From positions 79,847 through 143,846 of the forward strand of contig JAVHXV010000004.1 of NCBI GenBank assembly GCA_031119475.1: 64,000 nt of DNA. Reading direction: 5' to 3'. The translations under genes were made by a program, and so were the position numbers. Shown piece after piece: positions 36,970 through 48,433 of the stretch. This DNA comes from Pedobacter sp. Its GTDB lineage: Bacteria > Bacteroidota > Bacteroidia > Sphingobacteriales > Sphingobacteriaceae. The notes beneath the pieces are model-generated. The model saw nothing but the letters and a program-made list of their open reading frames with translations. It did no database searches and was not told where the DNA came from. Numbering within the stretch: position 1 is the first letter of the stretch; each line of letters starts with the position of its first letter.

Positions 36970-37049
36970 GCCCAGATGGCGGAATTGGTAGACGCGCTGG
37001 TCTCAAACACCTGTGGGAAACCGTGCCGGTTCGACTCCGGCTCTGGGTA
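36970..37049 (+). tRNA. tRNA-Leu (anticodon CAA)
   Basis: This is an 80-nt class II tRNA. The acceptor stem GCCCAGA pairs with TCTGGGT (first pair G-U), with discriminator A. The D-arm is GCGGAATTGGTAGACGC. The anticodon loop CTCAAAC gives anticodon CAA, a short variable arm follows, and the T-arm is CCGGTTCGACTCCGG. One mismatch (U-U) is present in the anticodon stem. CCA is not encoded. A degenerate relative lies at 47388-47503. Confidence 0.92.
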
Positions 37050-37051
37050 CA

Positions 37052-37087: not shown

Positions 37088-37227
37088 TCAAAAACATGCA
37101 TTGCTCTTCAGAAACAAAGATTTTTGACGGTTCGATCTCCGGTTAGGGCATACGATTCACCCCAGCCGTATCTAGGTCGAACCGCTATTAAACAAACTCG
37201 GTTGATTAGATCTTTTCAGAATATTCC

Positions 37228-44976: not shown

Positions 44977-46917
44977 ATGTCAGCACCAATGAACACCTTC
45001 AAAAAATTGAACACTTTATTCCAGTACAGATTTGGGCCTGTACTTCTCGCAGTAATATTGTTATGCACCACTTCCTTAATTACCAGGATTATGCTATTGG
45101 TGTATTCTTCAGCATCATTTGAGTGGAGTCTGATCAATCTTTTTAAAGTATTTTTTATTGGATTATTGTTTGATTTGGCAGCTGCATCTTATGCAATTAT
45201 TCCGCTAATTCTGTATTTGTGGATATTTCCATCCAGATGGTATGGGAAAAAACTGAACAGGATCTTGTTGATTGCCTATTTTTTTGTTGTCATCATCACG
45301 CTGCTATTCAACGCGATTTCAGAATGGATTTTTTGGGAAGAGTTTTCGGTACGCTATAATTTTATAGCGGTTGATTATCTGGTCTACACCACTGAAGTCA
45401 TTGGAAACATCAGGCAATCTTATCCAGTAAATGCGCTATTAACAATACTTATTGTTGTGTCTGCATTACTAACGTATCTATTAAGAAAAAGAATATGGGA
45501 ATCTACAACAGTTCAAATGCGGTTTGGCAAGCGCACAAAGTTTCTATTCCTTTTCTTGGTTGCTCCAATGGCTACTTACTTTTTGATCAGTCATCATTGG
45601 AAAAATCACAGCAAAAACCAGTATGTGAACGAACTTTCTGGTAACGGGATGTATGATTTTGGCTTTGCCTTTTGGCACAATCAATTGGATTACGATACAT
45701 TTTACAAGACTATTCCAATTGATAGCGCACTGTCAATTATTAGAAGGAACCTTGGATTTATACCAAATAATGAAAAAGATCAGAATACGATGAGAACTAT
45801 CACAGCTGATTCTACAGAAAAACGAATGAACGTAGTGATGATCAGCGTAGAAAGCCTAAGTGCAGAATTCTTGGGCAGCTATGGAAATACGCAAGGTATC
45901 ACACCTAATATGGATACGCTTGCAAAAGAAGGGCTTCTTTTCACTCATCTTTATGCATCGGGAACAAGAACAGTTCGTGGTCTGGAAGCATTATCGCTAT
46001 GTATTCCGCCAACGCCTGGGCAATCTATCGTAAAGCGGCAAAACAACAAAAACCTTTTCACATTGGGAAGTGTATTCAGATCGAAAGGCTATAACAGTAG
46101 ATTTATTTATGGGGGTTACGGCTATTTTGATAACATGAACGAATTCTTTTCTCAAAACGGTTATCAGGTAACTGACCGAAATGCATTGAGCGAAAAGGAA
46201 ATCCATTATGAAAATACTTGGGGCGTTGCAGATGAAGATCTTTTTACACTTTCACTCAGGGAACTTGATAAAGATTACAAAAATGGCAAGCCATTCTTTG
46301 CGCAGATCATGACCGTTTCCAACCATCGCCCCTACACCTATCCGGAGGGAAGGATTGACATACCATCCCATACGGGAAGAGAAGGTGCGGTAAAATACAC
46401 TGATTATGCCATTGGCAAATTTATCAGGGAAGCAAAACTTAAGCCTTGGTTTAAGAACACGCTGTTTGTAATCGTAGCAGATCATTGTGCATCAAGTGCG
46501 GGAAAGGTTGAACTGCCTGTAGACAAATATCATATCCCAATGATTATGTACGCTCCAGAACATATCAAGCCGGGAAAATTTGAAAAACTTGTGGCACAGA
46601 TTGATATCGGTCCTTCGATATTGGGATTGTTAAACTTTAGCTATCAAAGTAAATTCTTTGGGCAAGATGTTTTTAAAATGAAAGATGAACAGCAAAGGGC
46701 ATTTATTAGTACCTATCAAAGCTTGGGTTATATCAAGAAAAATAAGCTAGTTATTCTTGACCCAAACAAGAAATTAAGCACATTTATTCCCAATTTTAAA
46801 AGTGGGACTTCGAAATCAATTCCTGCTGAAGAATGGTTAACTACTGAAGCAGTTGCTAACTATCAATTGGCTTCCTATTTATATACTAACGGTGGCTACT
46901 ATTTTACTTCCAAGTAA
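44977..46917 (+). CDS. LTA synthase family sulfatase-fold transferase
   Basis: This 646-aa protein has five N-terminal membrane helices (to about residue 205) followed by an extracytoplasmic sulfatase-like domain. Metal and nucleophile residues are visible: Glu292 in SVESLSAE, the Thr near 330-332 in SGTRTVRGLEA, and Asp/His in IVADHCASSAG. In Gram-negative bacteria this family transfers phosphoglycerol or phosphoethanolamine to envelope glycans, and the acceptor here is unknown. Together with two PAP2 phosphatases it suggests envelope phospho-group remodelling. Confidence 0.9.
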   Translation: MSAPMNTFKKLNTLFQYRFGPVLLAVILLCTTSLITRIMLLVYSSASFEWSLINLFKVFFIGLLFDLAAASYAIIPLILYLWIFPSRWYGKKLNRILLIAYFFVVIITLLFNAISEWIFWEEFSVRYNFIAVDYLVYTTEVIGNIRQSYPVNALLTILIVVSALLTYLLRKRIWESTTVQMRFGKRTKFLFLFLVAPMATYFLISHHWKNHSKNQYVNELSGNGMYDFGFAFWHNQLDYDTFYKTIPIDSALSIIRRNLGFIPNNEKDQNTMRTITADSTEKRMNVVMISVESLSAEFLGSYGNTQGITPNMDTLAKEGLLFTHLYASGTRTVRGLEALSLCIPPTPGQSIVKRQNNKNLFTLGSVFRSKGYNSRFIYGGYGYFDNMNEFFSQNGYQVTDRNALSEKEIHYENTWGVADEDLFTLSLRELDKDYKNGKPFFAQIMTVSNHRPYTYPEGRIDIPSHTGREGAVKYTDYAIGKFIREAKLKPWFKNTLFVIVADHCASSAGKVELPVDKYHIPMIMYAPEHIKPGKFEKLVAQIDIGPSILGLLNFSYQSKFFGQDVFKMKDEQQRAFISTYQSLGYIKKNKLVILDPNKKLSTFIPNFKSGTSKSIPAEEWLTTEAVANYQLASYLYTNGGYYFTSK

Positions 46918-47062
46918 ATCGAGATATGCCTCCTGACAATTATTTCAGTTTAATCAATCCGCATGCAAAAATAACATCATTTAGTTACTGTACTGGCAAT
47001 GAAGCTATTATACCCAAATCTTCCATAAAATGGTTCGATTTCAGTACGTCCGGGGGTACATG

Positions 47063-47089
47063 GCCTCAACATTATGTTGAGGCTTTTTT
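47063..47089 (+). terminator. Intrinsic terminator before the GIY-YIG gene
   Basis: The perfect stem GCCTCAACA / TGTTGAGGC with a TTA loop is followed by TTTTTTA. It is preceded at 47031-47059 by GGTTCGATTTC ... CCGGGGGTAC, which resembles a decayed tRNA 3' end. The arrangement matches the tRNA-plus-terminator layouts at 36970-37087 and 47388-47538. Confidence 0.8.
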
Positions 47090-47101
47090 ATTTTCCAACT
47101 A

Positions 47102-47386
47102 ATGGCATCAGTTTATATTCTATTTTCCAAGAAACTAGATCGATTTTATATAGGTAGCTGTAATAATATGGCTTACCGAATTGATCAGCATCTAAACAAG
47201 AATTTTCCATTTAGTTTTACAGCTAAGACAGATGACTGGATGCTATTTTTACTCATTGATAACCTGGGATATCAGCAAGCACGGAATATAGAAATCAATA
47301 TCAAAATGATGAAAAGCAAAAAATTTATTGAAAATCTAAAGCAATTTCCAGAAATCATTAAAAGATTGACTTTAAAATACGAATAA
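47102..47386 (+). CDS. GIY-YIG nuclease family protein (94 aa)
   Basis: This is a stand-alone GIY-YIG domain: SVYIL (Tyr5) and FYIGS (Tyr16-Gly18), Arg26 in AYRIDQH, and Glu64 in QARNIEINIK followed by MKSKKFI. All usual active-site positions are present. It starts 12 nt after a terminator, and its stop codon is 1 nt from the start of the tRNA-Leu remnant, so it is embedded in tRNA debris. These small proteins are frequent in Bacteroidota and may be mobile or homing-like. Confidence 0.88.
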   Translation: MASVYILFSKKLDRFYIGSCNNMAYRIDQHLNKNFPFSFTAKTDDWMLFLLIDNLGYQQARNIEINIKMMKSKKFIENLKQFPEIIKRLTLKYE

Positions 47387-47387
47387 T

Positions 47388-47503
47388 TGGCGGACGTGTA
47401 GCTAATCTTGGGGTTACACGCGCTGTTCTAAAACCAGTGTGATGCCGAAGCTATCGGCAGGTGCCGGTTCGTCCCGATAGCTATCGGGACCGGCTCTGGG
47501 TAC
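47388..47503 (+). pseudogene. tRNA-Leu remnant interrupted by palindromes
   Basis: Blocks identical to the intact tRNA-Leu occur in order: TGGCGGA (47388), CGCGCTG (47419), an anticodon-arm-like TTCTAAAACCAGTG (47426), GTGCCGGTTCG (47461) and CCGGCTCTGGGTAC (47490-47503). The D-loop is replaced by a CGTGTA...TACACG hairpin (47395-47420). The T-loop ACT is replaced by the 18-nt palindrome TCCCGATAGCTATCGGGA (47472-47489). The 5' acceptor strand is missing and replaced by the GIY-YIG gene end. It cannot fold as a tRNA. Confidence 0.8.
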
Positions 47504-47508
47504 GTATC

Positions 47509-47538
47509 AAAGCCTTCGAGAAATCGAGGGCTTTTTTT
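47509..47538 (+). terminator. Intrinsic terminator after the tRNA-Leu remnant
   Basis: The stem AGCCTTCGA / TCGAGGGCT (one mismatch or wobble) with a GAAA loop is followed by TTTTTT. It is probably the original terminator of the lost tRNA gene. Confidence 0.75.
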
Positions 47539-47542
47539 ATGG

Positions 47543-48433
47543 TTAATTTCCTATCTCCAACTTATATCCCTTCCCATGCACATTCGTGATACGCACAGCG
47601 GGATCATACTCCAGTTTTTTTCTCAATTTTGAAATGAACATATCCAGGCTGCGGCCCACAATGACCCCTTCATCTTCCCAGATCTCTTTTTGCAGTCGGC
47701 TCCTGGAAATGGTCTCATTAGGCGATAGGGCAAAGATAGACAGCAAACGGCTTTCGGTACGGGTTAAGTCTATTGCGTTTCCATTGATGGCGAGCTGACG
47801 ATTTTGCACATCAAATAACATCGCGCCCAAATTAAAGGTATTTACCTCAGTTGCTTTGGCCAAACTTTTTTGAGGTCTGACCGACTTCAAGAAAAGGAGC
47901 CCCACAAATGCCAAAAGCGGAAGGCTTCCGAGAAGATAGCCTTTCTGTGCCGAACTCAGGCCACCCTTTTTAAATTCGATGTCAATGATGTAACAGTCTT
48001 TTGGCTGAAACCTTCCCTTACAGGCTATGATATTTTCTTTTTCGTTACTGGAAATGGCAAACCCGAAAGCGACATTGTTACTCCCACAATTCATTACTTT
48101 TACAATATAATCTCTAGTTAAATGATCTGTGGCCAACAAACGTTGGGTGGTTTCCATCAAAGCTTCGGGCTGAAAAGTGAAAGCACGCTCAAAGCTGACC
48201 TGATAATTATTATTGGCTACCTTTTTTACAGGAAGTACCCTTGACGTGCTGTCGCCCGACTGTAAAAGCAGCTCATGGCCAATCTTCCGTAACAGCACCT
48301 CCCTTCTCACCATCTCAAAATCATCACCTTCCGTCAAGGTAAAAGCTGCGCAGGTTGCTGCCAGAAACAACAATAAAAGCGATCCGAATAAATATTTGCT
48401 TTTAAATAGAAGTGGGTTCAGGCTATTGCGCAT
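47543..48433 (-). CDS. Membrane-anchored winged-helix transcriptional regulator
   Basis: This 296-aa protein has an N-terminal TM/signal anchor (about 12-32), an extracytoplasmic domain with three cysteines (to about 160) and a second TM (about 165-183). The cytosolic OmpR-type winged helix spans about 200-296 (DLTRTESRLLSIFALSPNETISRSRLQKEIW and RITNVHGKGYKLE). This is a one-component sensor with the DNA-binding domain at the C-terminus, opposite to CadC/ToxR. Targets are unknown. The start ATG at 48433 is accepted. Confidence 0.87.
   Translation of the reverse strand: MRNSLNPLLFKSKYLFGSLLLLFLAATCAAFTLTEGDDFEMVRREVLLRKIGHELLLQSGDSTSRVLPVKKVANNNYQVSFERAFTFQPEALMETTQRLLATDHLTRDYIVKVMNCGSNNVAFGFAISSNEKENIIACKGRFQPKDCYIIDIEFKKGGLSSAQKGYLLGSLPLLAFVGLLFLKSVRPQKSLAKATEVNTFNLGAMLFDVQNRQLAINGNAIDLTRTESRLLSIFALSPNETISRSRLQKEIWEDEGVIVGRSLDMFISKLRKKLEYDPAVRITNVHGKGYKLEIGN

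Follow-up and report, generated by a model that had tools for sequence, protein, structure and literature searches.

The window analysed here, by which we mean the whole 64,000-nt stretch of Pedobacter sp. DNA, holds what we read as a degraded example of a chromosomal cassette that is widespread and organised round a tRNA gene. The usual order in relatives is an intact tRNA, a terminator, a GIY-YIG gene, a broken copy of the same tRNA, and a further terminator. The fullest cassettes begin with a tRNA 5′ half ending in a palindrome, followed by a spacer, an intact tRNA of the same isotype, and a terminator, and continue with the GIY-YIG gene, a tRNA D-arm, a palindrome, the variable region, the T-arm, the acceptor 3′ strand, and a terminator. 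In the window, decay has reached the tRNA adjoining the nuclease gene, and 10 kb separate the cassette from the working tRNA-Leu.

The window locus and its nuclease gene

The intact tRNA-Leu(CAA) is called at 36970-37050 by ARAGORN and at 36970-37049 by the Rfam tRNA model (RF00005, 52.1 bits). The copy at 47388-47503 has 62 of 81 positions in common with it, in order, and the alignment score of 70.1 compares with a maximum of 31.2 among 1000 single-base shuffles; neither ARAGORN nor Rfam at the gathering threshold calls a tRNA here. The GIY-YIG ORF ends at 47386, one base 5′ of the start of the tRNA similarity, and the broken tRNA-Leu is thus left without its 5′ acceptor strand. Both the ordered tRNA-Leu blocks and the displacement of the acceptor strand by the end of the ORF had been pointed out in a first-pass annotation of this DNA and stand as described. 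Its heading of a broken tRNA-Leu gene needs rewording, as there is indeed a broken copy, but the functional tRNA-Leu is intact and the broken one is an extra copy. Of the hairpins it placed at tRNA loops, those in the D-loop and T-loop are there, but the count of two missed a third at 47443-47459, in the variable region. In the T-loop, the ACT of GGTTCG-ACT-CCGG is replaced by TCCCGATAGCTATCGGGA, which occurs three times in exact form in the genome of the window, twice inside tRNA-like copies. Folded as RNA, 47384-47540 (terminator included) gives z = -3.83, and 0 of 200 shuffles are as stable.

Features of the cassette and of its functional counterpart in the window
Feature	Coordinates	Strand	Evidence and remarks
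Intact tRNA-Leu(CAA), functional counterpart	36970..37050	+	ARAGORN, Rfam RF00005; 10 kb from cassette
Possible remnant, T-arm and acceptor 3′ end, of the tRNA found before the nuclease gene in relatives	47032..47059	+	Weak alignment; position in L023
Terminator-like hairpin and T-run, between tRNA-like end and nuclease gene	47062..47091	+	Sequence, fold
Gene for a 94-aa GIY-YIG nuclease consisting of the catalytic domain alone	47102..47386	+	PF01541 E 5.8e-7, alignment
Broken tRNA-Leu(CAA) copy without 5′ acceptor strand	47388..47503	+	Alignment versus shuffles
Hairpin CGTGTA...TACACG, D-loop place	47395..47420	+	Sequence, fold
Hairpin TGCCGAAGCTATCGGCA, variable-loop place	47443..47459	+	Sequence, fold
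18-nt palindrome TCCCGATAGCTATCGGGA, T-loop	47472..47489	+	Sequence; derivative at corresponding place in L023
Second terminator-like hairpin and T-run	47509..47538	+	Resembles tRNA-Leu/nuclease-gene terminator of L023

The cassette lies between 44977-46917, which we take to be an LTA-synthase-like gene, and 47543-48433 on the minus strand, presumably a regulator-like gene. A second tRNA-like 3′ end, proposed in the first-pass annotation and located at 47032-47059, finds weak backing in the sequence itself, where 42 of 500 shuffles align equally well; it is plausible only because L023, a locus from another genus, has an intact tRNA-Leu(CAA) 3′ end at the corresponding place, followed by a terminator and then the ORF. 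L023 and the window also have in common the T-loop palindrome (a derivative in L023) and a similar terminator. About 75 nt past the intact tRNA-Leu, at 37124-37141, we noted a T-arm-like stretch, TGACGGTTCGATCTCCGG (3 of 500 shuffles equally good), and the sister genome G273 has a similar one.

Two simpler readings were set aside. The palindrome as a mere terminator is rejected for these tRNA copies, because separate terminator-like hairpins follow on their 3′ side; elsewhere in the same genome some TCCCGA hairpins do resemble terminators. A group I intron in tRNA-Leu is likewise rejected, since an Rfam scan of the window at the gathering threshold gives tRNA only and thus no self-splicing intron around the nuclease gene.

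The 94-aa product matches PF01541 at residues 2-51 (E 5.8e-7), and profile searches against Pfam, TIGR, and PHROGs gave no second family and no DNA-binding domain. It retains the Y, Y-x-G, R, H, and E residues that are conserved in the family; the Y, Y, G, R, H, and E columns are invariant in a 12-row alignment that includes it and are kept in 91-95 of the 95 tRNA-linked rows described below. The solved structures nearest by sequence profile are 1zg2 (E 1.4e-10), 1ywl, and SLX1 chains, and a match to TIGR01453 lies below that model's cut-off. PHROGs gave the window protein a single weak match (phrog_14252, 0.0024, function unknown) and the Val-type protein a weak one to phrog_5123, a homing endonuclease (7.8e-4, residues 1-34). 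The window protein has no match in the phage collection (tblastn, 1e-3) and no relative in IMG/VR; one IMG/VR contig classed as viral (L382) carries a Val-type cassette at the contig end, its tRNA cut by that end. Purifying selection acts on the nuclease, with a median dN/dS of 0.17 over 35 pairs with dS of 0.2-2.5 and finite values between 0.04 and 0.24 among the 30 closest pairs.

Recurrence beside tRNA genes and isotype lineages

Searched at the protein level, 61 genomes of the family gave 33 places, spread over 19 of these genomes. Among 30 of these loci, an intact tRNA stands on the same strand no more than 260 nt upstream in 15, and a tRNA at 261-600 nt in five; four run into a contig start, and six, the window included, have none called. 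When 11 family loci were inspected at the sequence level, most showed a broken copy of the same tRNA with a palindrome past the gene and then a terminator. A scan of public contigs with a tRNA-Val-linked protein as the query supplied 80 named loci of the 106 relatives found, and Val is over-represented among them because of that query. They are mostly from Bacteroidota, with a few in MAGs labelled Ignavibacterium, Neomarinimicrobiota, Chlorobiaceae, Uhrbacteria, and Woesearchaeota and two under Actinomycetota species names. An intact tRNA lies within 260 nt upstream in 54 of the 80 (contig start, 8; tRNA at 261-600 nt, 4; none called, 14), and 70 have either a T-arm motif or a TCCCG palindrome in the first 130 nt downstream.

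A class-wide draw of 70 genomes, 69 of them with PF01541 matches, gave 112 short places from 45 genomes among the better matches listed, seven of which are less than 260 nt from a contig start. Within these listed matches, an intact tRNA lies within 260 nt upstream on the same strand in 26 and on the opposite strand in none, and a downstream tRNA is on the same strand in seven and on the opposite strand in none; the 26 linked places come from 16 genomes and cover eleven amino-acid isotypes. The 18 best-scoring PF01541 loci of the draw, which encode other GIY-YIG proteins, have no tRNA linkage. Linkage to tRNA genes therefore marks a subset of GIY-YIG genes, and it is here that the cassette differs from the UPF0213-type small GIY-YIG proteins and SLX1 structure-specific endonucleases that are the nearest solved relatives of the window protein by profile. 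The window's own genome has two other GIY-YIG loci. One, at a contig start, is preceded by a 3′ end resembling that of tRNA-Ala (isotype by eye); the other follows tRNA-Arg(CCT) and has a broken copy downstream, with CCTGCCTGCCGGCAGGCAGG inserted between D-arm and anticodon arm and a near-identical terminator on the 3′ side. In some genomes (for example G019, G012, G048, and G054), nuclease genes are repeated within 1 kb. Assembly error is disfavoured as the source of the window's arrangement, because it is found again in independent genomes.

Isotype was mapped on a tree of 71 linked nucleases, which omits rows of unclear isotype and one half of those linked to Val, and to which the window and L002 were added by hand; the alignment has few columns and many forks are weak. 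On this tree, isotype changes 28 times, as against 41-48 times in 300 label shuffles, which ignore shared descent, and without Val the figures are 26 and 32-38. On this tree, nuclease lineages follow tRNA isotype. The window protein groups with three other Leu(CAA)-linked proteins (SH-aLRT 98), of which one comes from a different family within the class. A switch of isotype is seen in an Arg(ACG)-linked gene within the Val group, the palindrome of which has TTACAA like a Val anticodon loop (by eye). The T-loop palindrome is present in L109 and absent from its relative L106 (dS 0.10), and present in L085 and absent from L080 (dS 0.25), which supports a recent gain of the palindrome in both pairs.

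Among the 24 of 26 genus genomes, the window's own included, in which tRNA-Leu(CAA) was found, a GIY-YIG gene adjoins it only in G255, where it is a truncated remnant with an in-frame stop. The distribution of the cassette is patchy, this remnant being the one decayed copy within the genus. In 23 of the 26 genomes we found the LTA-synthase-like neighbour, and of 20 such loci, only the window's has a GIY-YIG gene and the downstream regulator within about 1.5 kb. No clean empty site came out of the comparison of these 20 loci, because the pairing of upstream and downstream neighbours seen in the window is not conserved.

Broken copies and palindromes

The anatomy of the cassette was counted over 95 rows with an intact upstream tRNA, 92 of them usable for the isotype match; two genes present twice (L033/L102 and L111/L218) count twice in these, the stem, and the upstream-half counts, and the window is not included because no tRNA is called within 260 nt of its gene. 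In 79 of the 92 loci, the upstream tRNA of the locus itself matches the downstream copy better than does any of five tRNAs of other isotypes (median score 66.9 versus 22), and 13 of the 92 fail this test. Mean identity of the downstream copy is 0.18 in the acceptor 5′ strand, 0.50-0.58 in the anticodon arm, and 0.77-0.82 in the T-arm and acceptor 3′ strand. The palindromes are mostly of the form TCCCGA-N-TCGGGA. Counting TCCCG...CGGGA arms only, with an arm length of at least 6, we find 63 in the 14.1 kb downstream of linked nucleases (56 of 95 loci) versus 11 in the 192 kb of far flanks of the same loci; downstream of GIY-YIG rows without a called tRNA, some of which are cassettes cut by a contig start, there are 26 in 18.7 kb. 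Thirty-nine of the 56 mapped downstream palindromes are exact replacements of the anticodon arm. In a separate mapping of place, the left anchor was sought from tRNA position 8 onwards, and a start at 8 is there a floor. All six outer positions are paired in 40 of 44 segments at the anticodon-arm place.

Taken as a recurrent arrangement, the earlier suggestion of a nuclease gene parasitising tRNA genes holds, with junctions of GIY-YIG gene and tRNA in many genomes and isotypes. The companion suggestion, that palindromes insert into RNA loops, is borne out for the place of the palindromes and, in two pairs of relatives, for their recent gain, while a dedicated mechanism of insertion would be a further step; the place is in structured parts of the tRNA, but in relatives it is mostly the whole anticodon arm and not loops alone. 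That the stems are kept foldable does not agree with the changes in the D-stem of the broken tRNA bodies, where 17 are broken and four kept.

These same features bear on an RNA-level system, in which the nuclease or some other factor would act on tRNA, and the broken tRNA, lying in the 3′ part of the nuclease transcript with a neutral hairpin for its anticodon arm, would be a decoy or autoregulatory mimic, as in a toxin with an RNA antidote. The exact exchange of hairpin for hairpin, the paired outer positions, the isotype match of the downstream copy to the upstream tRNA, and the stable fold of the window copy with its terminator would all suit such a system, which we nonetheless regard as quite improbable. 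The acceptor 5′ strand is missing, and T-stem changes are, like those of the D-stem, not mainly compensated (16 broken, 12 kept). Conservation of an RNA fold was sought in the broken tRNA bodies through compensatory stem changes and was not found, which argues against an RNA function of these bodies. A decoy would also leave the upstream 5′ halves, considered next, unexplained, and the available text of PMC2988022 ascribes nicking or cleavage of DNA to the GIY-YIG superfamily.

In 26 of 90 loci, the intact tRNA is preceded by a second 5′ part of a tRNA, as against seven of 90 for one other isotype, and in 22 of the 90 it includes a broken half (one of these, in L082, is cut by a run of N). Eighteen of the 22, judged by eye, consist of acceptor strand, D-arm, a TCCCG-type hairpin at the anticodon-arm place, the variable region, and a few bases. 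From this sequence of parts it follows that the 5′ and 3′ halves overlap from D-arm to variable region, palindrome included, and what lies between them, the intact tRNA and the nuclease, looks as if inserted into the anticodon arm. Upstream 5′ halves may stand in tandem (six in L076, three in L100). The palindromes on the two sides of a locus are alike (mean 0.362 versus 0.167, with two of 5,000 shuffles as high, over 15 loci, L218 left out), where the upstream member is the nearest palindrome within 220 nt of the tRNA and is not always proven to be at the anticodon-arm place. In L082, a Pedobacter nanyangensis contig, several near-full-length tRNA-Val copies have the anticodon stem CCCGA/TCGGG with TAC retained; they lie beside ordinary tRNA-Val genes and are possible intermediate forms.

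The usual footprint of an integrase is a duplicated 3′ tRNA part beside an intact tRNA, and the downstream copies fit it. The cassettes might thus be remnants of ordinary integration at tRNA sites, as in integrase-type islands with attachment-site duplication, with the nuclease gene retained by chance. We consider this very unlikely. The stretch from tRNA to broken copy is only about 0.4 kb and recurrently carries the same nuclease family, broken halves with like palindromes stand on both sides and overlap from D-arm to variable region, and no integrase was seen by eye among the ORFs of 44-50 kb.

Palindromes also occur apart from linked nucleases. The pattern of palindrome plus T-arm was found at 44 places in 21 of 197 genomes, versus two control matches; 30 of the places, examined further, are 25 distinct loci, and 15 of the 25 have no linked nuclease within 900 nt. 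TCCCGA hairpins elsewhere number from 0 to 98 per genome, and there are intergenic palindrome copies. At L294 (G085:C31:24200-25000), two TCCCGA...TCGGGA hairpins lie in a partial 23S rRNA gene (Rfam LSU_rRNA_bacteria, 678.5 bits), apparently at variable helices, the helix places being assigned by eye. In the window's own genome, another palindrome, CCTGCC..., is found in tRNA copies, and a tRNA-Leu(TAA)-like 5′ fragment with TCCCGATAGCTATCGGGA in its D-loop stands just upstream of an intact tRNA (L295, G000:C1:2300-3300). At L306 (G000:C12:125-144), a 5′ fragment adjoining an intact tRNA resembles tRNA-Thr (isotype by eye), and CCTGCCTGCCGGCAGGCAGG separates its acceptor strand from its D-arm. 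Tandem tRNA-Lys 5′ copies (isotype by eye) in which TCCCGATTTTTATCGGGA or a variant takes the place of the anticodon arm are present at L289 and L290 (G081 C22 and C35), those of L290 upstream of an intact tRNA.

It is worth weighing whether two independent things have come together, namely interspersed REP-like palindromes of Bacteroidota, settling or tolerated in hairpin-forming sequence, and small nuclease genes that ride duplicated tRNA regions, the nuclease having no role in making the palindromes. The 15 loci of 25 without a nuclease, the two hairpins in the 23S rRNA gene, the CCTGCC... palindrome in tRNA copies, and the intergenic copies all agree with this. The strong concentration of palindromes downstream of linked nucleases relative to the far flanks does not, nor do the alike palindromes on both sides of a locus or the finding that, in the window's own genome, four of the seven copies of two exact palindromes lie in tRNA copies. 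On these grounds we think such a coincidence unlikely, while giving it some weight.

Comparison with SegB and a possible mechanism

RAYT transposases with REP/REPIN sequences pair a small DNA-acting enzyme with short palindromes dispersed in the genome. The cassette is like them in that a small DNA-acting enzyme is accompanied by short palindromes also present elsewhere in the genome; it differs in having a GIY-YIG rather than a tyrosine transposase domain (PF01541 is found in the window protein, and the RAYT, or REP-associated tyrosine transposase, domain is absent) and in that its palindromes are concentrated in tRNA copies and have variable loops.

A closer comparison is with SegB of phages T4 and T6, a free-standing GIY-YIG homing endonuclease that, in the available text of PMC13096335, cuts inside tRNA genes, with its nuclease activity required for the amplification of a tandem tRNA-Tyr and segB unit. 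As the route of tandem amplification, that text proposes that the 5′ region of the tRNA recombines with the 3′ region of segB; it reports no favoured tRNA isotype and gives RAWTSGAAC as a preference motif. On the other strand this motif is close to a common T-arm sequence, a stretch that the T-loop palindromes interrupt, which is suggestive only. The cassette is similar to what is described for SegB in having a GIY-YIG nuclease beside tRNA genes, without an intron, and a junction of nuclease and tRNA comparable to the one proposed there. An adjoining tRNA is found in relatives of the window; the window's own adjoining tRNA is decayed and its intact one is 10 kb away. The differences from SegB as that text presents it are that the cassette is on bacterial chromosomes and encodes a single-domain protein of about 80-95 aa, that cleavage of tRNA genes is an observed property of SegB and a presumed one of the cassette nuclease, that cassette lineages are isotype-bound where SegB favours no isotype, and that the cassettes have palindrome-replaced anticodon arms on both sides. 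It looks as if the cassette works like a SegB-type element, yet it lacks the DNA-binding domain and does not belong there by sequence.

On balance we favour, with some confidence, the reading that the cassette is a SegB-like, free-standing homing-type chromosomal element that duplicates or spreads a unit of tRNA and nuclease. In most loci the nuclease 3′ end is fused to a tRNA without its 5′ strand, and it is this junction, of the SegB kind, that leads us to the homing-type reading. Cleavage, mobility, and the origin of the palindromes in this element are steps that we infer. The nuclease would break a tRNA gene in or near the anticodon arm, and repair through tRNA homology would duplicate or transfer the unit, which would supply its own working tRNA, so that the host would survive. 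The copies left over at the flanks, having lost the anticodon arm to a palindrome, would no longer be cuttable, and the palindromes would mark, and perhaps protect, these disrupted copies. An element of this type that carries a working tRNA would explain why lineages stay with one isotype.

Several observations weigh against the homing-type reading. The protein is a bare catalytic domain without a DNA-binding domain of the I-TevI type, the intact tRNA of the same cassette retains the presumed target, and 15 of the 25 loci with palindrome and T-arm have no nuclease within 900 nt. TCCCGA hairpins elsewhere, the 13 of 92 loci that fail the own-isotype test, the lack of a match in the phage collection, the lack of a clean empty site in the genus, and the palindromes downstream of GIY-YIG rows without a called tRNA point the same way. 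More tentatively, and with rather less conviction than we give the SegB-like reading, we propose that the cassette may represent an undescribed class of minimal mobile element, one that would enter the anticodon arm of a tRNA with a same-isotype replacement tRNA and a single-domain GIY-YIG nuclease and turn the anticodon hairpin into a palindrome at both ends, repeated rounds building nested arrays of tRNA halves round one working tRNA. Among the titles and abstract openings that searches of the open-access literature listed, none describes GIY-YIG cassettes linked to tRNA genes, or anticodon arms replaced by palindromes, in Bacteroidota.

If the SegB-like reading is right, essential tRNA genes across the Bacteroidota are home to a selfish nuclease element of very small size, one that persists because it replaces the genes it breaks, and the relation between SegB and tRNA genes known from phages would extend to bacterial chromosomes. 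The exact exchange of an anticodon arm for a palindrome raises the question of how one DNA hairpin comes to be swapped for another. There would then be a natural family of nucleases of tRNA genes bound to isotype, and the palindrome-bearing tRNA fragments in these genomes would be explained.
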